A DNA stretch of 64,000 bases, from positions 9,004,001 to 9,068,000 of the forward strand of contig OX387201.1 of NCBI GenBank assembly GCA_947561715.1, read 5' to 3'. The notes under the pieces were generated by a model. That model saw nothing but the letters and a program-made list of their open reading frames with translations. It searched no databases and was not told the origin of the DNA. This stretch comes from Ascidia mentula. Its lineage: Eukaryota; Chordata; Ascidiacea; Phlebobranchia; Ascidiidae. Each line of letters opens with the position of its first letter. Within the stretch, counting starts at the first letter, position 1. A program made the position numbers and the translations under genes. This document shows positions 25,688 through 42,900 of the stretch, one piece after another.

Positions 25688-28559
25688 CTACTCGGAATAT
25701 CTGAGGGAAACCCTTCCCTCCCCAACATTCATGCCAACGGGGCCAACATGGCGTACAAGAAACTCAACAACGCATCCAGGACCTTCAAATTTTGGGTTGG
25801 GCACTGACAAGCAATGCACTCGATATCGACCGGTGTATGACCGATCAAGTAGCAAGAACTCCGGCTCCAAGGCGCCACCTAGCTGCTGAGCATTTTCGAT
25901 CTGGCGGTCCGAAGTGAGACGATGCAATACCTCGCTGTATATTGTTCCAGCGGGTATGTTTTCAAAGTGCAAAGAGCAACTTAAGTGGAAAAGCTTCTTT
26001 GTCGCTTCGTCCCACGTCCAGTCAACCAACTTGCACGTGACCGGCGTGACGATCACGTGCGGTTGCTTAGGAACGTGCCTTCCGGACAAGATTTCTAAAA
26101 ATGCTACACGCGTGATATGATTGCCTGCTATAGCTGAGAGGGACATGGCATGAAACGGCGTGGGATGTTTCACGCACATGCTTTTGATGCTGCAAGTATC
26201 TACAAGGGGAGTAATTGTAAACTTTCCAAACTTCTGATCTCTTGTTTCAAAAGAGAATCTACAATCTCCAGCGTCTGTCCCAAGTTGAAGAACAGGCAAA
26301 GGGGATTTTTTCCACTCTTTGGCATTGATGGTCAGGTAACCGTCTGCCGAAGATGCGACGTGAAGCTCAAATAGCGGTGCGAGCTCTTGTTTGCTGCTCT
26401 CATCCGATTCAATTCCAACTCTTGGTAACTGCCTCTGACTGTCTGGAGGTATCTGTACAGCAATATAATTCCCAGCCTCCGACACTGATAGAGACAAATT
26501 GTCGCCGGTCAACTGTGGCATGCATTCCTGCCAGTTAAGGCAGTACCAGTGTCTGCCACGCACGCCGCCCGGGTCTCGCTTGGATCCATATCCAGGGCAG
26601 AAACTGGTAGAAAGGAGGTCAGCTGCTTGCAGGGGATAGTTGGGTGTCAAGTCTCGAAGAAGCTTCCAGAAACGCTCATTGTCGGTCGCGAATTTTTCGG
26701 GACCGAACTCTTCATAAACCCAACCCGGAGCAAAAATGGCAGCTGACAGTCCGTGCCTGAAGAGTATAGGCATGAGGTTAACAACAAAAGGTGTGAATGT
26801 TTAACACGGTTTATCTTATACCGTCTGGCGACGACCAACGCTTTGGAAGTGTTGTAGCCGCCACCGCCGAAAACGCCCCTCCCGAAAACATCGATTCCCA
26901 CATATACTTTTGCAGGATTGCCGGAAGCTTTTTTGGACATTTCTAGTTGTTTCTCGCTCCACGCGTAGTTGAGAAATATGCCATCAGTGACGTCATAAAA
27001 GCATCTAAGTCGAGTAAACGAACAAACAAAGTAATCGAAATAAACTTACATACATATTCTGCAAATGTGGAAAGACAGGGAAAAGAGAATTAATGATGAT
27101 GACCGACCTGTTTTTTTCGTTGAGCTCGTTTTGCCACACTAGTTTTCCATCGCACGTGACGCTGTCATACCATATTACTTTCGAGTGTTCGTCATGCAAA
27201 TGCATCTTTTCGGTGAGGTATTGAACGAAGTTAACCAACGCTTGAACTTTCGTAAGCTGAAAACAAATTTTAACTTAAATATTGGGAGCTACATAATAAC
27301 ATTGCTTACGTACAATTGCAAAAAAGAATAACTTAGAGTAGGATGCTTGATAAACGTTTTAAGTCGTGATTGGGTTTGTTGGCCTACATCCATAGAAAAT
27401 GCAATGGCAACGAAACGTATTGTTTCATCATTTCCTCCACGCTTGCAAATGAAGTTACATTTGCACAGCGGCAAAGCCGTTCTGGCAATTGTTCAAATGA
27501 CAAAAGTTATGTTTCCTCATATCTATTCTCTACCAACCTAATTTGTATGCAATGGAAAAGCGAGACTAAAACGTTTACCATTCCATATGTTTATCAGATG
27601 ATTAACCAACCTCAACTGGACACTCAAAGTTCATCAACCATCCATCAAAACCATAAAACTTTGCGATTTCCACAAGTCGGTCTGCAGTTGCTTTCCAGAT
27701 AGCTTCAGTGGATAGAAATGCTCTGCATCTATTAATGCACAAGACAAACTGCTTTTTTGTATTGAATAGAAGCGGCAATGCATCAGTTTCAGTATCAGTT
27801 TTGAACAGTAAGCTACTTCCAGATATAATGTTGTGCCTTATGAGCACACATCCATACATTTCTTGCAAAACAGATAAACATAATAAAATTTTCGGTGCAT
27901 AGATGAAACAAATAATTCTGAATGGAAATAGCACAGCCAGAAATTTAAAAGGATGTTGCAAACATACTAAACAATATTTAATCAATTTTAAAGATACTTG
28001 TTACCTTTTGGCCCCATCCGACGATTCCAGTATCAAAGTTCCTAGAACAGTCACACCATTTCGATGAGCCGCATTTGTCCATACTACTGGAGGAATAGTG
28101 ACAAAGTGGTGACTGAAATAAACAAATATGTCGATGCCGCTCCAATATTGAATGTGATATCCAACTGGTTTTTCTGATATTGCTCCTTGAACAAACCTGT
28201 TCAAAACCAAATAAACAGATATGGCTGTTACGCTACACAAAAAAGTTTCAACAACTATGCAACACATAGTAAGACCAGGAAACTAATACAAGGTAGACTA
28301 CTTGCCTGTCTTCAACATATCCTCCCATCATGTCATGGCATACTAATGTTCTTACAGCATCTGGTTTTATAACCTTAGGATTGTGAGGTACTCTTGCCAC
28401 ACTGTATGATTGGCCTTTATCAAGGGGATCATTTGGTTCCCAACCATAAAGCTCATCCAAAGTTTTAAGTGGCAAAGTTACGGGGAGACCCGCCTCAACA
28501 CTTCTCCCGGTAAATTCAGGACCCTTTTTCAAATCCACTACAATAGTTTGCTGTGCCAT
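25688..28559 (-). CDS. ENGASE: Cytosolic endo-beta-N-acetylglucosaminidase (GH85)
   Basis: Cuts the chitobiose core of free N-glycans in the cytosol during glycoprotein turnover. Six coding exons: 28306-28559, 28005-28196, 27607-27722, 27108-27246, 26822-27004 and 25688-26756, about 650 residues (human about 743). Recognised by HDMMGGYVEDRFVQG, DIFVYFSHHFVTIPP, FDGWLMNFEC, WYDSVTCDGKLVWQNELN and HGLSAAIFAPGWVYE, all GH85 hallmarks. The Asn-x-Glu pair of the family's catalytic site is present as N180-F-E182 (family knowledge plus alignment by eye). The first intron has a GC donor (AG|GCAAGT), which is the only choice that keeps frame and homology. Start chosen at ATG 28559, one base after a splice acceptor; an in-frame ATG at 28583 lies upstream of that acceptor. 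No signal peptide, as expected for a cytosolic enzyme. It follows PIGP so closely that an operon is likely. Confidence 0.97.
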
Positions 28560-28589
28560 GGCTTTTGAAATTAAGCAATGCAATTTATA
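28560..28589 (-). promoter_or_regulatory. Intercistronic gap with probable spliced-leader trans-splice acceptor
   Basis: Between the PIGP stop (28592-28590) and the ENGASE ATG (28559) lie only 30 bases. They end in a splice acceptor (TTTCAAAAG|C) one base before the ATG. No intron could fit here, and no promoter is evident, so the acceptor is best explained as a trans-splice site. Short or absent intercistronic spacing with spliced-leader addition is established for ascidian operons; that this pair is one is inference. Confidence 0.6.
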
Positions 28590-29560
28590 CTAACGGTTGA
28601 AAGTCACTGTAAAGCCTTCCCCGGATTTCAGTTGACTGAATTTTGGCACTTTGTATTCTTTTACCGGTGGAACTGAATAAGAGGCAATTTGCTCTTTATA
28701 ACTCTTTTGGTGCTTGGTCAAGTCGTTTAAATAAGAATATTCCCGTATTTCATCTGTTCGAAAAGTCACCATGAGTTAATGTCGAGGTTGTTTGGGTGCA
28801 AAAGCAACTTACCAGCAAGGGCAAATGAATTCACCAAATTCAGAAAGAAATAAAACACAAGAAATGCAATGAATGCAAATGATAAAAGAGCAGGAATCGC
28901 AACTGCCCAGTACCTAAAAAATAAGCTAAATGTATACAGCATTACATTACACAATCCCAGCATTTGATTTAAAGCCAAACTAACATATTTAACAGCAACA
29001 AATATGTATTGAGTATAAATAGACTGGCCCATATTGCTATTAACACTGTCATGTTAAAGACGTTTCGACAAAAACTTATATTGATGGAGCTCTACCAATC
29101 GCGTCAGTCAAACTGATGATGACAAAAGTTTTTGTCGAAACGTCTTTAACATGACAGTGTTAATAGCAATATGGGCCAGTCTATTTATACTCAGCATTAT
29201 GAGAAAACCCGTGAGTTGTGTTCCTAAATATGTATTATTTTGCATAGATTTTATTAACATTTAAAGTAAAATTGGCGGTTTTAAATTTGCATTTAAAGTA
29301 TGATTAAATTATATATGCTTGTACAAACATACTTGGATGGCAAGTAGGTAACTCCAACTACTTGCAGAAGATGATCAGGAGTGTACGACCAAAGCAAAAA
29401 AACTCCTGCAAAGCAAATCAATATCGGATTCTTGAAAACATGGCATTGGTTTCACATTTAAGAAGAAAAAAATCTTACCAAATAAAACAAAGCTTGTTAA
29501 ATAAAGAACAAAACCATAGAGTGCTCGTTCAGGAGTGGGGGCTGGACTGTGTTCTGGCAT
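28590..29560 (-). CDS. PIGP: GPI-GlcNAc transferase subunit P
   Basis: Small membrane subunit of the complex that adds GlcNAc to phosphatidylinositol at the ER, the first step of GPI-anchor synthesis. Exons 29479-29560, 29333-29405, 28813-28913 and 28590-28753 give 139 residues, close to the vertebrate size (about 134-158). It starts MPEHSPAPTPERALYGFVLY, the conserved PIGP N-terminus, has a first membrane segment, then TYLPSKYWAVAIP and a second membrane segment (about residues 55-80), and a short polar tail. All exon phases agree. An intron at 28914-29332 carries a large inverted repeat. It is the upstream partner of ENGASE on the same strand. Confidence 0.95.
29011..29192. repeat. Perfect 67-bp inverted repeat with 48-bp spacer (MITE-like)
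   Basis: Arms 29011-29077 and 29126-29192 are exact reverse complements (GAGTATAAATAGACTGGCCC ... and its complement). It sits inside the second PIGP intron. The spacer plus inner right arm contain CTGATGA followed by a GACAAAA/TTTTGTC hairpin and GAAAC, which resembles a hammerhead-ribozyme core. Perfect arms suggest a recent insertion or strong conversion between arms. I see no clear target duplication, so the family is unknown. Confidence 0.9.
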
Positions 29561-31035: not shown

Positions 31036-33435
31036 CTAACGCATTTTCATGACAAATTTGTAAGGGTAAGGCGAAGTGATAATTCCAGGTGCCCCTTTCA
31101 TCGTTGGCGTTGGTTGTTTAGTATTGCCGAGCACGCGGAACTTCTGAAGGATCGAAACAAGAAAAAGGAACATTTCCTTCCGAGCCAAACTTTCGCCCAA
31201 ACAACTACGAGGACCAATTGAAAAGGCCAGAACCTTGTCCGATTTGACATATCGACCTTCACTGTCGAGGTGTCTTTCTGGATCAAATCTCTGCGGATCT
31301 GGCCAGTGGTTTGGGTCGTTGTGAACGCTCCAAAAATTAGCTAAAACCTATTGCAAGTAGTAAGGAGTAATCAGTTCGAGCATCTTAATTGGGCACATGT
31401 TTTTTGCTAACCTGTGTGTTCTTGGGTATGCAGTAGCCCATAAAGGAAACCTCTTCAGCTGTGGCATGTGGAACACCTAACGGCACAACTGTCGCCGTGC
31501 GTAGGACTTCTTGAATAAACGCTTTGGTGTAAGGGAGATCAGCCGATAAGGAAACTTTGCCATCTGAACCTGATTAAAACGGCATAGATTTCAAATTATC
31601 CCAACCAAGGGCAAAAAATGTTACCAATGACATCGTCAATTTCTTTGTGGATTCTTTCCTGGACATTTGGGTATTTAACCAAATACAAACACATCCACCG
31701 AATAGAACTTGTAGTTGTGTCAACACCAGCAGAAATAAGATCCTTCAAGTAGTATATAAGCTGTTTCATCTGCAAATAATGTTGGGGTAAGTATAATAAA
31801 AACAGCTATTCATTGAAGTCCTACATACAGTAAACCCTGGAGTGTTCTTCTTGTGCTCCATCAAAAACAGATCAACAAAGTCTTGTGGCTCATTAAAATT
31901 ATTATTTTTGATATGTTGATTTATAATTTCCATGCATAGTTCTGGTAAGAAAAGAAGACGTGAGAAAAGAATTAAACATCAATAAAATGAACAGCCTTAT
32001 CATACCATTGGCAATTTTCATTCCTTCTTTCATCCTGTTAAATTGGCCCCTTATTGGTGGCAAAAACCGGACCCATGGAAACATGGAAATTGCAAAGAAA
32101 ACATAGGCAGCAGTCCGTATGCTGAACAAAGAACAATGCAACACTTAAAATGAGCCTGAAAACTACAAACAGGTACCAAACAAAATGATCAATTACTAAT
32201 AAATTAACAATATAATCACACCTTTTAACCGACTCATGTATGTAGTTCAGCAGTTTCTCATTTTGTTGTTTATCACAATATTCCTTCATTACAATGTCTG
32301 TTAAAACGTTGGCAACTGCTACCAACAAGTCATCCTAAGTGCATTAAATAAATGTTATGCTTTTTGAAACAAACACCGTGCATTCACTATTTTTTAGGCA
32401 ATCACTTATTTCTGTAGTTAAATTTTTGCATTATCCATTATTTGTTTGGAAAGATTAACAGAAAAACTGTCTCTTGTTTCAGAATTTATAATTTTGAATT
32501 TGTGAGTGTTGCACTGACTATCAATAAAAGTGGAATTTATTCAGTTAAATGTCTTTGTGATCATTGCCATGACGAAGGACATCTGTACATAATATTGCCA
32601 AAAAGGCAATTTAGTTTATTAGGTAGACCTTCTATGGTGGCACATTATGTGGGCATTTACATTCAGAACACAGAGTTTGATTATAATCTTCAGCATATTA
32701 CATTGAGGATTGTACGCATATGATTTAAACAAAAGTTACTAATTTAGAAAATATAACTAACCTCAAGTATGAAAGGTTGCTCATTTTTTCCCTTTAGTTT
32801 AAACAATAATATTTCAATTTCCTTGAGGATTTTTGTTTCTATGGATTCTTCACCAAAACCTTTCCTAAAAGCACATATAAGGTTTCAACATCTTTACAAA
32901 TAATGACCAAACAAATTTATAACACAACTTTTCAGTAACAATACATTACCCAGATAAAGCACGAGCTCCAAAGTTTTTTTGAACTTTCCAAACACTGTAT
33001 GGGTGGAGAAATATTATTCCTTGACCACCTTCACAGCTAACGTTTGAAAAGAAGGTGTGGTATCGATTAGAAAATGGAATTGCCTGCACCACAAATGCCT
33101 AAGAAATGTTTTCATAGTATTATATTGTTGTAAGTTTAGGCCATTTAACACACAACCTGGTTAATAGCCTCAAAGCTATTTAAGATTAAAGTGGGGTTTG
33201 ACCCAATTTTGGTGTATATGATTGGTCCAAAGGTCTTTGACCACTTTGAAAAAGTTTGTTCAGGGTGTTGGCTGAGATAGGGAATGCATCCCAGAAAGGG
33301 AAACCCAAAAGGACCTGGAGGAAGTTTGCTGCGTTTCTGTGACAGGTGTGTTAAGAAAATATAAGCAACTGTTGCAACAATAATAAAGGCCAAAGTTGGG
33401 GTAAAGTTATCAGTAAAATAACACATCTCCCACAT
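31036..33435 (-). CDS. Cytochrome P450, clan 2 (CYP2-like)
   Basis: Membrane-bound haem monooxygenase; substrate unknown. Nine exons: 33157-33435, 32950-33098, 32762-32864, 32222-32334, 32006-32121, 31829-31941, 31625-31769, 31412-31569 and 31036-31347, giving about 495 residues, normal for a microsomal P450. Seen: N-terminal membrane anchor followed by the proline hinge LPPGPFGFPFLG, I-helix DLISAGVDTTTSS with the oxygen-activating threonine, K-helix EVLR (ExxR), FDPERH, and the haem loop FSIGPRSCLGESLARKE with the ligand Cys near residue 441. All catalytic signatures are intact. ATG at 33435 is used; an in-frame ATG at 33426 is also possible. The clan assignment rests on the hinge and I-helix style; the family number cannot be given without a tree. 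Confidence 0.96.
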
Positions 33436-33597: not shown

Positions 33598-34710
33598 CTG
33601 GGTTTTTTTTTTCACCAAAAAATTTGTGTCAAATGACCAAAATGACAGTAAAAATTTAGGACATTTTCAAATTTATTTTGGTCATTTGCGATATAACAAA
33701 AAGAAATAAGGAAACGCATTGTTTATTAACAACAACTTTGCAACATAAACAAACGCAACACATCAAAGACACAATACTACGCATCGGATTTATAGCGCAA
33801 TCGTTTCGCGCTACTTGACCATTGCGCATATGCACTGTCGTAGTTAAATTCTTTAAACGATAATGCGTTAAGCCTCAAACGCATAAGTGTGTCGGCGGTG
33901 CAACACTGCAAACGGTTTCTTATTGGGGTTTTTAAGCGTGTTAATAGGCTAAACCCCCTTTCAACAGTTGCGTTTTCCGCATTAAAAACAAGTAACACAT
34001 TTGCAATTACTGAAAGATTTGGCCAATCTTCATCCCGTGTAGCAATTATTTTAAGCACTTTGCGCCAGTCATCTTCTGTTTGGCAATTGCGCATTACTTC
34101 AAATTTAAAGTTTGACCATTCTGATTCGATATCATTTTGTTGTAATTTATAAAATGCCGCCAAAGCTCTGATGCTATTATTGCCATATGATATAATGCCA
34201 TCAGAGTTCTCCGGAAAATCCTTGCAACGTGGATTGGCCTGTGCCAGATACAACTTTAGCTCTTTTTCTAGGTTGTTCTTCGCGCTCCATTATTCACTGA
34301 GTTATGTGGTATTGCGATCGTTCACAAAAATGTAAGCAACTTTCAAGAGTAGACTTGTTTATATAGGCAATACGCTGCGTTTGTTTAATTAAAAAAAACA
34401 AATGAAGGACAATAATCCCTATTGTTAACAAACCATGCAACTGTAACCGTATTCTTATCGCACAAAAGTCGCAAAACCCGCGTCCTGCTGGGTGTTATCG
34501 ACCGTCGGCCGCTCGAAAACGATTCGCCGGGAGTCACAAAAGCGACGTCCGGGGCAACACAAAGGGAATTTTCGCCTACCGATGAGACGCTCGAATAATG
34601 TACCAGTCAATTTCCTTTCGGACATTGTGTCCGAAACGGCTTTTGTTTTTTGTGTCATTTACAAAAAAAATGTGTCAATGACCGACAAATGACACAAAAA
34701 AAAAACCCAG
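33598..34710 (-). mobile_element. hAT DNA transposon, internally deleted, with perfect target duplication
   Basis: The 1113-bp element has terminal inverted repeats CTGGGTTTTTTTTTT at 33598 and its complement ending at 34710. It is flanked by a perfect 8-bp duplication CTTGGGCT (33590-33597 and 34711-34718), the hAT hallmark. Inside, on the minus strand, is only the C-terminal part of a transposase, so the element is a deletion derivative that would need an enzyme supplied from elsewhere. Perfect duplication and clean ends suggest recent insertion, into the gap between the P450 5' end and the Kv4 3' end. Confidence 0.88.
33777..34253 (-). pseudogene. hAT transposase C-terminal dimerisation domain (truncated)
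   Basis: A 158-residue open frame containing EDWPNLSVIANVLLVFNAEN, then ATVERGFSLL and TPIRNRLQ, the hAT dimerisation motif near the C-terminus of these transposases (ZNF862/KIAA1586-like lineage). The BED finger and the catalytic part are absent from the element. The frame is intact to its stop, in line with a young copy. Confidence 0.88.
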
Positions 34711-36904: not shown

Positions 36905-39900
36905 TTACAAAGAAGAAATCTTGAGAACACCGGATTTCGAAGAATCGCAATTGTTGCCACTCTTCGCGCTTGGTAGAGTGCTTCGCTTTTCCTGCGCATT
37001 TCCAAAACGGTTTTTTACTTCGTCTCCTTGCCTCACCCGCACGATTTGTCCGTCCGTCGATGCAGCGTAGACCATGGGACAGTCACGCGCTTCATTGTAA
37101 CTGGGCGGATCTGATTTCCTCTGGCAAGTCGCGCTTACTGTAAATGGCTTAGAATGAGCACGGTCGTAACCGTAACTCTTCGGCGTGCCACTTTCATTCG
37201 GCGAAATAGCGTTAGGCAGACGGAGGTCATCATCGCTCCTGCACTTGTAATAGTCCAATGAAGATGACCCCCCGCTGACGCCTGACGTGGATGATGATGC
37301 GTCTGAGGACCCTAACGGCGTCATGGGTACATTTAAAGTGTCGCCGATCTTTTGCTCTTTGAAGATGTCCTGATAGTTTTCGGTGGAACAGGGGTTGTAG
37401 GCGGGTTGAGGAGAAATGAGGCCACTGTCCGCCTGCGTCACAATGGTAGGGACGGATGGATGTTGGCATGGCTCATCGGTATCGCTGTCAACGTCATCGA
37501 TCGAAGGAAATCCGTGCGTGGCTGTCGTATACACAATGACGGATTCCGCTTTGGACGGTTTGCTGTTCTTCCACGACGACAGAGTTGCAGGTGGTGACCT
37601 GGGGATCCTGGCTCTACATAAATTGATTTGGTTGGTTGAGTTCGTATTGAATGATATGCGACGACGAGCAAAAATGACCAAGTTAAGGGTTGCGTATTAG
37701 AAATGTGATAAGATATTAACATTCCCAAATATAACGAATAAACAAATCATTTTTTATTTAATTTGAAAACAAAATATCGTGCCAGCAAACAAGTGTATGG
37801 GTTGTTGTATAGTCTGATATTTTGGACTGCTTAATTTAGCATGACTGTAGCGTGTTGCCTTAAATTTCTCACCACAGGAACCAAGTCTACTTTTTTGTAG
37901 CCTTTCTAGAAACATGATGTAAGTCTGTTTCCGTGTGTTTACCATGCGTCAATGCAAATGCAATGGGGCTTTACCACGGAAAAATGCGCCGGGGCTAACT
38001 CATGTTGGCCCAGATTTGAATGAAATCCGATCGGTCGCCAGCAGTACGCGGTAAACGATATATGCCCACCTGCCACTGCTGCTGTTGTTGCTCGAGTTAA
38101 ATTGCGTCACTTCAGAGCTCTTTATCTGACTTTCCTGCCTGCTGCTCGTTGTCGGCAAAGTGTTTTGGTGATTTTGTGACACGGAGCTCGCATGCTGGGA
38201 AATAGCCGACCTGGCCGAGATCAGAGAATCGGTTTCTTGATTGCTGTCCGTTTTGTGGCCAATAGTAATAGCCGCCGTCGGATTAGCCACGTCTCCATCC
38301 ACAATGTCGTGATTCTGCATGCAAAGGCAAAATCGATAGAACCTAAATCACAGAACGCGAAAAGTAAAACCGCAGGTTAAATGAGAACAACAGCATCGTC
38401 GATATTTAAATTGGTTTCGGGATCAGACAGACTTCTTTCTGTTGCAGCCAATCGAACAAGGCTTTATGGCGGGTATAGCACCACTCATGCCTTTTTCGTG
38501 TGGCAAGGAATTAAAATTGAAAAATTTCTTAATTTGTTGTCCAGTGTCAGAATTTAATGGCCAATATGCATTTAAACTCGGTTCTTTGCATATAGTGTGC
38601 GCAGTATAATTCTCTAGAACGGCAAATTTGTTTTTGTTTTGTCGCCAACAAATCACAAAAGCTATATCTTTATCTCTACCACCGCGTAACCTTTCGCCAA
38701 TAGTCGTTCAAGTGCACACTAGTTTTTATAACTGTCGTGGGACCCATACCGTGGTCTTTTCGAGACAATTGAGCAAATGGAAGTGGTCGCGCTCAAAGCT
38801 GTTGTTATTGGAATTGCTGGAACTGCTGCTGGTACCACAGTCGCTCTGTAAAGAATAGTTGATCAGTTTAAAACACGCAAAAACCCAGTGTTGTTTAGGC
38901 TAAGAGCAATTGCTTTTTTATCTCTTTCAAACAACAAAAAATATATTTTCAAAGAAACAAATTTTGTTTACACAGCTCTTATACTACGATAAAGCAATAT
39001 ATTTTATTTCTTGTTAAAGGGTCCTTGTGTGAGCATTTCGTGCACAAATTACAAGTTGCATTTGTTTCATTGAAGTACTACTTGATAAAGATACTACTTA
39101 CCGTTTGAATTTTATTCCCATCAAAACCGGGGTCTAGCTTCTTATGGAAGTGGTTGATAACTCCGGAGTGCTTACCGGCCCGTATTCGCGCCAGACGAGC
39201 TCTCTGCAAATAAAAACAGTTGTTTACAGCGCACAACAAATGAATAGATTCATTGCGTGAGCCTGCTTCTCAATAAAACGCGTAAATGTCATCTCACAAA
39301 CAGGAAAGACGTTTAAAGTATATAGTGATGTCCCGCCCATTGCATATTGCAAATTTGACAAAAAGGTTTCAAGGTGACAGTAATCAACACCCTTTGGAGA
39401 CATAAATTAAGCTACCTGGACATAATGCCGCGTTGTGACTGGTCCATATACAAGGGTACAATGAGCGGGCGTGTTCATTAAAGGCGTTAAAAGCCTTGTC
39501 GAAATTTAATAATTCAGTGCCCTGTCACCCTCACCATTCTACATTTTGCAGAGGCAAGGAGCCGACTTCCGCACAAGATAAGCAACTTGAAACCATTGAT
39601 TTTGCCCCGGAATCGCTAATTGGCCGCGCCCGTTGTCGAAAAACACATCAAAGTTTTGTGACCTTTGCAAGCGCAGATATATACGGTTCATGAGCACGTG
39701 ATCACTCGGTTCATGAGCACGTGATCACTCGCTTTATGAGCACGTGATCAAGTGTACATTCGGTTTGTTACCTTTTGGGCGCGCCGCTTGTCCTGCCGTT
39801 GACTCTGACTGTAGATTCGACCGAAGTTGCTGACGATGACTGGGACAGGAAGGGCGATTACCAGCACACCACTGAGCGAGCAAACACTCCCGAAAATCTT

Positions 39901-42900
39901 GCCCGCTATTGTACGCGGAACCATGTCTCCATATCTGCGGCGAGCAAAACAAACTGAGTAAATGAAGGGAAGGGATTCGGCGGCGGGGCTATCTACGTAT
40001 TATATTTCCGCATTGCAGGTTCTGTGTAACCCGACCAGTGCACAGTGAGGTAAAATAGCACGCAGAAATACTTTTGCATTCGCCAAAAAGCTTACCCGAG
40101 TGTTGTCATGGTGACAATCGTGTACCAAAATGCCGAAGGAATGCTGGTGAAATTCGTTCCTTCCATACCCTTCTCGGCGTAGAACATCACAGTGGCGAAG
40201 ATGATGATGGCCATTGTGAGTGAGAACAGCAAAAATCCCAACTCACTGGCGCAGCTCTTCAGAGTGTAGCCAAGTATGCGCAGCCCTTGCGAGTGACGCG
40301 AGAACTTGAAGATGCGGAAGACGCGGAAAACGCGCAGCGTCACAAAGGCGCCGCTCACGTCTTCGTTATCGGTAATGATGAGTCCGATGTAATAGGGCAA
40401 GATGGCAACCACGTCGATAATACTCATTACCGAACGCAGAAATTTGCACCGGTTTGGCGCTGCAAATAGCCTTAGAAAGTATTCGACCGTGAAGATCATA
40501 ACACACGCTGTATCGAGACAGAAGAAAATTAACTGGTAGCGCTCTCCGCACGGCAAATCTTCAACCGAACCGGGCTTCGGTCCACACGACACCGTCTCCA
40601 CAATGTTAGCAAAAACTGAAACAGCAATGAAAAAGCCAGTAACGTAATAAAAGACCAACGCCGGAGTGCTTGTGTGCGGATTCTCGAATGCACGCCACAT
40701 GCGCTTTCGAAGCGACGTCGGGGCGGTAGGAACTATTTTGCTGGCAGGCGCTGGAGCACCGCCATTTTCGGCTGTGCCGTCTGCTGGCACACTATCGTCC
40801 ATCAAGCGTTCGTCGTGCTCCCGCTTGCGGTCGCGGTAATCTTCGTAGCAACAGTCGGCAATCATTTCTGGCATGATACCAAAGAACGCAAGCTCGTCTT
40901 CGATTGTGGTGATGCACTCTGTGCGCGGGAAATGCATCTTTCCGGTTCGGTAAAAGCAAAGGATGTGACGGAAAATCTCCGGGTCACGGTCGAAGAAATA
41001 CTCGTTCGTTTCCTCGTTGTAGAAGAACTCCTTTTCCCGACTGCCGAGCATCGTATCAGGAAACTTTTCAAGCGTGTTCCTCCACGCCTGGAATCGGCGA
41101 CCGCTCACGTTCAGTGACACGACCTCGTCTTTCTTTCGACGATGGCTTAGCGGCATAGGGGGTAAGTCACCGGATGCAACCGGCACCCAACCTTAAAACA
41201 ATCACACATATTAGTCGGGTGCGTACAACAAGAAGTCGTATCACACCGACTCCCTAAAATCTAAATTCAAACGTTTTGGTTATACTTTTAACCATTTCGT
41301 TTGTAAAAATACATTTGGTATGGTCTTGAGCCATGTCAGCCTGGCTGTAACAAACTTCTGATAGCCGTGAACTACATAAAACAACACATGAGAAGGGATA
41401 GTGTGTTTAGGCCTTTTGTAATCAAACAGTGGATCAGATATAGTTTATTTTATAATTTGAAACCGAACATTTCAGATTAAAGTGGACTGGTTTATACATA
41501 CATTTTTTCTTTGTTTGTAAACAACCAGCTGACTTCGACCTGAAACGTTCTTTTTCTAATTATTAATTTCCTTTCCTTATAAATTGTTGTCGCTGGTAGA
41601 AAGACACATTGCTCATTGGAAGGTCAGATTCTGGTTAAGTTAAGGCACCAGTCTTAGATAGTTTTACGATTGTTTATGTTCTGCTGTTCATCCGTGGCAC
41701 AACAAATCAAAGTCGGGAGAACTTTTTACACCACTGTGAAGGGCAAGTGAACCAAACTGTTGAATAATTAACCGTTGCCTCTGCACTTTGCGCTACAAAC
41801 ACCGTTGAACGTAATAAACATTGCGTAATGACCGTCGCTGGTGACATAAGTTCAACGACCAACGCTAAGCACCGGAAGGTCGTCTAGCGCAACAAAAGGC
41901 TCCGATGAAGACGCAGGCGCTTTGTACGATTGCATTGTTCGTTGTGCAATACGAGTTCTGCTTACGCATGTGCGCGTTGTCGTTTGTCAATGCAGTTTAA
42001 TAACGACGCCCGTCGTATGAGTCCCTTAGGAATCATCAACTTGGATCGAGCGATGATCTGCGCCGCGATGAACAGATGCACCCAGCAAATAGCCTTCTAA
42101 AAGCTTCGCAGCAATCTCCCAACACTGCGCAAAGGGGAATATTGCAACCTCGCCATAACCTTGGCACGAAATCTGTAATGTGGCGCCTATAAGTACCGAC
42201 AACGCTATATAACCCCGTGAAAATCAGCCGTGAAGCAGAAATAGCATCACCACGAAACAGTTCAAGTTAAAAGCCAGGCGTGTGGTTAAGGCCGGTGGCC
42301 TATTTGTTTTTCCCGGAAGACCGAAGTCTCTGCGCGACTGGTAGAGCGTCGATATCTAAATCCTCTGTCAAAATCCAAATGCCAAATGTGAAGGTTCGGT
42401 TCATAAATAATGCAAGACTCTTCACAATGCTAATTATTTAGTCATTACTGTGGCTGCTCGGCCGTACGGGCATTGTGACGGGTCCCCTCTCAAGTTTAAA
42501 TGTAAACAACTCATTTTTCAACCGCGTCTTGTACCATTTGCAAACATACATTTTTCTTTTTTTTCATGACGTTCTGCGACGGTTGCGCATGTTCGAACTT
42601 AAATATGGAGTTGTGTGAGAAACAGAACGCAAGCGTCTTGTATAAAACCACTACATACTGTTTACGAGCATTGCAAAAGTGGGTATAAGCTGAAAGGCTG
42701 TTTTCATTTGAGGAATTCACTTACCGTTATCACCAAAGTCGTCCGACCCCGGAGTTCCAAAATCAAACGACTGTCCAAAAGATCTTATCATACTTTGAAA
42801 ATGGATTGGTATGGCATAGCCAAACTAAAAAGCGATCATTTCAGCAAAGAATTGCATGTGTTTATTGTTTAAGTGCATTATTAAAACTACATATTAAACG

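Follow-up and report, generated by a model that had tools for sequence, protein, structure and literature searches.

In the 64,000-nt stretch of Ascidia mentula DNA analysed here (the window), PIGP and ENGASE lie one behind the other on the minus strand, with only 30 nt between the stop codon of the first and the ATG of the second. Both genes are intact, and we are confident, though short of certain, that they form a two-gene ascidian operon that is resolved by leader trans-splicing. This reading is supported by the gene geometry, by the presence in this genome of the exact Ciona leader and of tandem arrays that contain it, and by the adjacency of URM1 and CHERP, together with the single-copy state of ENGASE and with the ~1.48 kb and the TATATAAG found upstream of PIGP. 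An earlier note on this DNA had proposed a two-gene tunicate operon with a possible functional pairing of its members; the evidence from geometry, leader, arrays and URM1-CHERP speaks for the operon, whereas the functional pairing was not borne out.

The spliced model of PIGP is complete, with 4 exons encoding 139 aa (Table 1). Residues 12-116 of the 139 matched Pfam PIG-P (PF08510) with an E value of 1.2e-24 (86.9 bits against a curated cut-off of 39.3) and the match extends into the last exon, whereas a PDB sequence search with PIGP gave no match up to E 1. The next gene upstream on the same strand encodes a P450 and ends near position 31039, ~1.48 kb before the PIGP start, and TATATAAG is located ~130 nt upstream of the PIGP ATG. 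Because of this space and this sequence, PIGP appears to head a transcription unit. Upstream of the P450 gene, an open frame at 33780-34289 (minus strand) showed a match to the hAT transposase C-terminal domain (E 0.00094) that stayed under the cut-off (19.4 against 21.4 bits). The genome searched was the 195.8-Mb assembly in 79 contigs. The published assembly kaAscMent1.1 comprises 197.0 Mb and 9 chromosomes with a QV of 64.9 (PMC11109543), and at this quality the PIGP stop codon is unlikely to result from a base error. The same paper names ERR10378036, a poly(A) RNA-seq run of Ascidia mentula.

Intron 2 of PIGP contains an inverted-repeat element (29010-29239) with many relatives, represented by at least 110 matching pieces genome-wide when both strands and its own locus are counted. 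The letters CTGATGA...GAAA in this element, and also in the leader-tagged repeats described below, resembled what we take to be a hammerhead motif. The hammerhead ribozyme was rejected as a candidate in both cases: an Rfam search of 28900-29300 matched no hammerhead up to E 1, and microRNA families only far below their gathering scores, and a search of 12 loci, five of which belong to the 10 leader-edged ones, matched no hammerhead up to E 0.1.

The ENGASE model is likewise complete (6 exons, 654 aa after splicing). The protein matched Pfam Glyco_hydro_85 (PF03644) over profile positions 1-300 of 302 (E 6.4e-93; 312 bits against a cut-off of 22.2), and a match to the ENGASE1 C-terminal Ig-like domain remained below the cut-off. 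Its closest solved relatives are endo-beta-N-acetylglucosaminidases (3fhq, E 1.6e-24), and the N-x-E pair, whose Asn and Glu are presumably the catalytic residues of GH85, is preserved in the alignment with 3fhq. ENGASE is present as a single copy; all six genome matches were at its own locus, and no retrocopy of its mRNA, which might have carried the leader, was seen among them. Intron 1 (28305-28197, minus strand) is a GC-AG intron with the donor CAG/GCAAGT, a class that accounts for 0.53% in Ciona (PMC4122922).

Table 1. PIGP, ENGASE and the sequence between them, in window positions. AGs other than the candidate acceptor are named by their first exon base; their scores are those of the 8-site and 11-site matrices, in this order.
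Feature	Position	Strand	Remarks
PIGP exon 1	29479..29560	-	ATG at 29560; spliced model, Pfam PIG-P
PIGP exon 2	29333..29405	-	spliced model, Pfam PIG-P
PIGP exon 3	28813..28913	-	donor CTG/GTAAGT; its phase would allow an in-frame joint with the AG preceding ENGASE
PIGP exon 4	28590..28753	-	TAG stop 28592-28590; PIG-P match to residue 116 ends inside this exon
Stop-to-start gap	28560..28589	-	frame common to both genes, without further stop
TATAAA hexamer	28584..28589	-	~20 nt ahead of the AG; may be a variant poly(A) signal or a TATA-like box
Candidate leader trans-splice acceptor AG	28562..28563	-	weak score; followed by CC, then ATG
AG	28589	-	-3.5, -5.4
AG	28606	-	-2.0, 1.7
AG	28615	-	-2.4, -3.1
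AG	28635	-	-5.3, -4.9
AG	28672	-	2.3, -0.7
ENGASE exon 1	28306..28559	-	ATG 28559-28557, GCCATGG context; followed by GC-AG intron
ENGASE exon 2	28005..28196	-	spliced model
ENGASE exon 3	27611..27728	-	holds Asn and Glu of the GH85 N-x-E motif
ENGASE exon 4	27108..27256	-	spliced model
ENGASE exon 5	26822..27004	-	spliced model
ENGASE exon 6	25688..26756	-	stop included

The distance of 30 bases given in the earlier note was confirmed, and a single in-frame TAG separates the two genes, the 10 codons that follow it being open up to the ENGASE ATG. Other statements about the gap had to be corrected. The acceptor had been placed one base before the ATG, with the leader joined at 28560; its AG is followed by CC and hence lies two bases before the ATG, so that the join would be at 28561. 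It had also been stated that the gap has no room for a poly(A) signal, which is partly right: AATAAA and ATTAAA are absent from it, but a TATAAA begins at 28589. On the minus strand between 29560 and 25400 the two common hexamers occurred only at 29255 (PIGP intron 2) and as ATTAAA at 27982 (ENGASE intron 2), and neither was found in the 387 nt scanned past the ENGASE stop. Since ENGASE itself lacks them, their absence from the gap is weak evidence. The PIGP 3' UTR, with 28 nt at most, would be very short, which argues against the operon. Finally, the exclusion of a cis-intron does not hold strictly, because the donor of PIGP exon 3 could reach the AG in frame through a 251-nt intron. A short cis-intron across the PIGP stop was considered and rejected: three of the eight GT sites of exon 4 would keep the frame when joined at 28561, with intron lengths of 141, 75 and 33 nt; by eye none of them is a good donor, and the better-looking CCG/GTAAAA would shift the frame.

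The strength of the candidate acceptor was assessed with two position weight matrices. In the matrix built from the 8 cis acceptors of PIGP and ENGASE, the AG at 28562 scored 0.4, whereas the training sites (which were not left out) had scores of 6.0-13.3, and 29% of the 3358 minus-strand AGs equalled or beat it. When three P450 sites were added (11 acceptors), its score was -0.8 and 39% of the AGs equalled or beat it. An acceptor this weak counts against the operon; however, true sites that were left out span -5.1 to 9.1 in the 11-site matrix, which therefore has little power, and the AG is neither supported nor excluded by its score. Both matrices rest on 8-11 sites and they rank the nearby AGs differently. 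There is no ATG within 28672-28560, so that a leader added at any of the AGs listed in Table 1 would leave the ENGASE ATG as the first one. For trans-spliced genes outside operons in Ciona, the average number of acceptor sites is three to four, many of the minor sites being located at 50 bp or less from the major one (PMC11155486).

The 16-nt spliced leader of Ciona, ATTCTATTTGAATAAG (PMC7986045), was found in 2157 exact copies in this genome (1091 + 1066), whereas the reversed control gave 0. Among the 100 copies listed, 54 are located at C1:15.24-15.30 Mb in four groups with 719/720-bp spacing, and the array continues with 4 more copies in L057. In the 21 distinct array copies read (8 in L017 and 14 in L057, one being common to both), the leader is in every case directly followed by a GT donor (GTAAGC); GTAAGCATCACGCCCTGCTTGGGC with a short hairpin (GCCC/GGGC) and a T-run come after it. 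The units of the L017 array are nearly uniform, with 99.4-100% identity to the first unit in six of six. From their sequence, the 719/720-bp tandem repeats are candidate leader-RNA genes. Thus, this organism has the spliced leader in 2157 exact copies and, in the tandem arrays with their GT donor, predicted genes for the leader RNA. A search of one literature collection for trans-splicing in Ascidia returned only a Botryllus ontology, judged by title.

Leader copies were also found at the edges of, and inside, repeats. The first 30 of the 2157 exact matches listed, all on C1 (L020-L049), were surveyed, and at 10 of them (L026, L030, L032, L034, L035, L036, L038, L043, L044 and L046) the similarity to other loci starts at the leader, with an offset of 0 or -1, and extends only downstream. 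The leader-edged match is short in L038, L043 and L046 (<35 nt including the leader). At 15 of the 30 loci the similarity runs across both sides, and 5 have no in-register partner. The leader-edged repeats have the look of leader-spliced RNAs copied back into the genome by reverse transcription, which would make them a genomic record of trans-splicing. The exact leader followed by GT occurs inside several repeat families as well (L018; also L009-L016); in L018, the copies at 560 and 7303 share their 60-nt flanks at a distance of 6743 bp, an arrangement that resembles the paired LTRs of a retrotransposon. The leader exon and a donor-like GT thus placed seem to belong to the sequence of some of the elements themselves.

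As control, the Ciona operon that contains DTL, URM1 and CHERP (PMC2760879) was looked for in this genome. URM1 was identified with an E value of 2.9e-36, and a CHERP-like gene is present 262 nt past its stop on the same strand (Surp module, E 2.8e-17; CHERP-like start by eye). One of the two published joints of the operon is therefore preserved here. Inspection by eye of the 9.9 kb read upstream of URM1 showed no DTL, and a phytochelatin-synthase gene (Pfam E 3.3e-15) lies there, indicating that the content of the operon is not fully conserved. The URM1-CHERP distance is far longer than the 30 nt between PIGP and ENGASE and, if measured from stop to start, exceeds the 100-bp operon rule, which counts against the operon reading.

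The working definition of an operon in Ciona is that of genes on the same strand with a gap below 100 bp (PMC2760879), and PIGP and ENGASE, as same-strand neighbours 30 nt apart, fall within it. That account reports 1,310 operons with 2,909 genes, of a total of 15,254, and 72% of the downstream genes (1,158/1,599) have 5'-full-length ESTs (PMC2760879). From leader-bearing Ciona genes and an inferred 84-bp cut-off 1,172 operons were obtained, of which 1,100 (94%) were in reference operons that were themselves distance-defined (PMC7986045). At the Ciona rate, and assuming an equal gene number in 196 Mb, we estimate ~0.4 operons per 64-kb window, so that one operon here is unsurprising. A Pfam search with 20 longer ORFs of the window gave no further close same-strand pair; most of these ORFs were unmatched and the search is not a gene census.

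Elsewhere in the window, the stretch 39826-39938 (minus strand) matched the Rfam family K_chan_RES, a potassium channel RNA-editing signal, with 75.7 bits against a gathering score of 51. The match adjoins an ORF at 40095-41192 (minus strand) with BTB_2 and Ion_trans domains, and one frame of the stretch reads as protein (18 letters). The match may mean that a Kv1 editing hairpin is conserved in this ascidian, or may reflect mere coding conservation.

In the proposed operon, a single promoter upstream of PIGP, in the ~1.48-kb space after the P450 gene, would make one pre-mRNA. Cleavage and polyadenylation of the PIGP mRNA would take place within the 30-nt gap or close to it, perhaps by means of the TATAAA, and the downstream piece would receive the 16-nt leader at an AG near the ENGASE ATG, either that at 28562 or one of those within ~110 nt upstream. 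Addition of the leader would then yield a separate ENGASE mRNA. The same arrangement might instead consist of two tightly packed transcription units, with ENGASE driven from a promoter inside PIGP, be it in the last exon, in the introns or at the TATAAAT of the gap, and PIGP transcripts ending within ENGASE. The TATAAAT does begin 30 nt upstream of the ENGASE ATG, but a TATA-driven start 25-30 nt downstream of it would be expected to hit the ATG itself; and although the ATTAAA in ENGASE intron 2 makes an overlapping PIGP 3' end possible, the precedent from Ciona is strongly in favour of an operon when the distance is 30 nt. Separate units are consequently regarded as unlikely.

PIGP exon 3 could also be spliced in cis to the AG before ENGASE, giving a minor mRNA in which PIGP 1-85 (exons 1-3) is fused to an ENGASE that would be tethered to the ER. 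The exon-3 donor is in the right phase for this and the joint would read ...NSFALAAMAQQTIVV..., without a stop in the stretch translated, and the three GT sites of exon 4 mentioned above are in frame too. However, in-frame joining has a chance of 1/3, exon 4 bears PIG-P sequence, and its own acceptor is the better one, with a score of 3.0 when left out and of 10.6 when included in training, whereas the AG at 28562 scored -0.8. We consider such a fusion very unlikely, and it is even less probable that the AG has a dual use, as leader acceptor for a cytosolic ENGASE and as cis acceptor for an ER-anchored PIGP(1-85)-ENGASE; if this were true, leader use would decide between soluble and membrane-bound ENGASE. 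The least credible alternative is one mRNA from which both proteins are translated, either because ribosomes read through the one TAG or because they reinitiate. The TAG and ENGASE share a frame that stays open over the intervening codons, but this would happen by chance in an estimated ~1/5 of cases, and bicistronic translation should be unneeded in an animal with a leader system. The operon with leader trans-splicing is therefore preferred. The single in-frame TAG has a practical consequence for annotation, since a gene caller could fuse PIGP and ENGASE across it.

Nothing was found to support the functional link between PIGP and ENGASE suggested earlier. The pathways of the two enzymes are separate; in the literature collection searched, no paper combined ENGASE with Ciona, and the only one with both PIGP and ENGASE concerns mouse implantation, judged by title. 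That a GPI-synthesis subunit lies beside a free-glycan hydrolase calls for no functional explanation, and the pairing is most likely incidental. Hence, a link of GPI synthesis to free-glycan breakdown should not be founded on this gene pair.

Like PIGP-ENGASE, the spliced-leader operons of Ciona intestinalis join same-strand genes with nearly no intercistronic DNA (PMC2760879), and the leader sequence of 16 nt and the URM1-CHERP pair are common to Ciona and this genome. Ciona operons are supported by ESTs and leader reads, whereas PIGP-ENGASE is proposed here from the genome sequence, and the pair is not met in the available text of the Ciona operon account (PMC2760879). Compared with Ciona operons, the 3' UTR of PIGP would be exceptionally short. 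Oikopleura dioica, also a tunicate, differs in having another leader, whereas this genome carries that of Ciona. The spliced-leader operons of Oikopleura have gaps of tens of bases, with a median of 31 bp (PMC7986045). In Caenorhabditis elegans, SL1-dependent operons are rare and have been likened to the Ciona operons without intercistronic region (PMC7986045), but this animal belongs to a different phylum and has a different leader, with a dedicated SL2 besides. PIGP-ENGASE is thus very probably an example of an established kind of operon and not a new kind. As an operon, it would be one more likely case, in Ascidia, of the system established in Ciona, whose leader is preserved letter for letter in this Ascidia genome.
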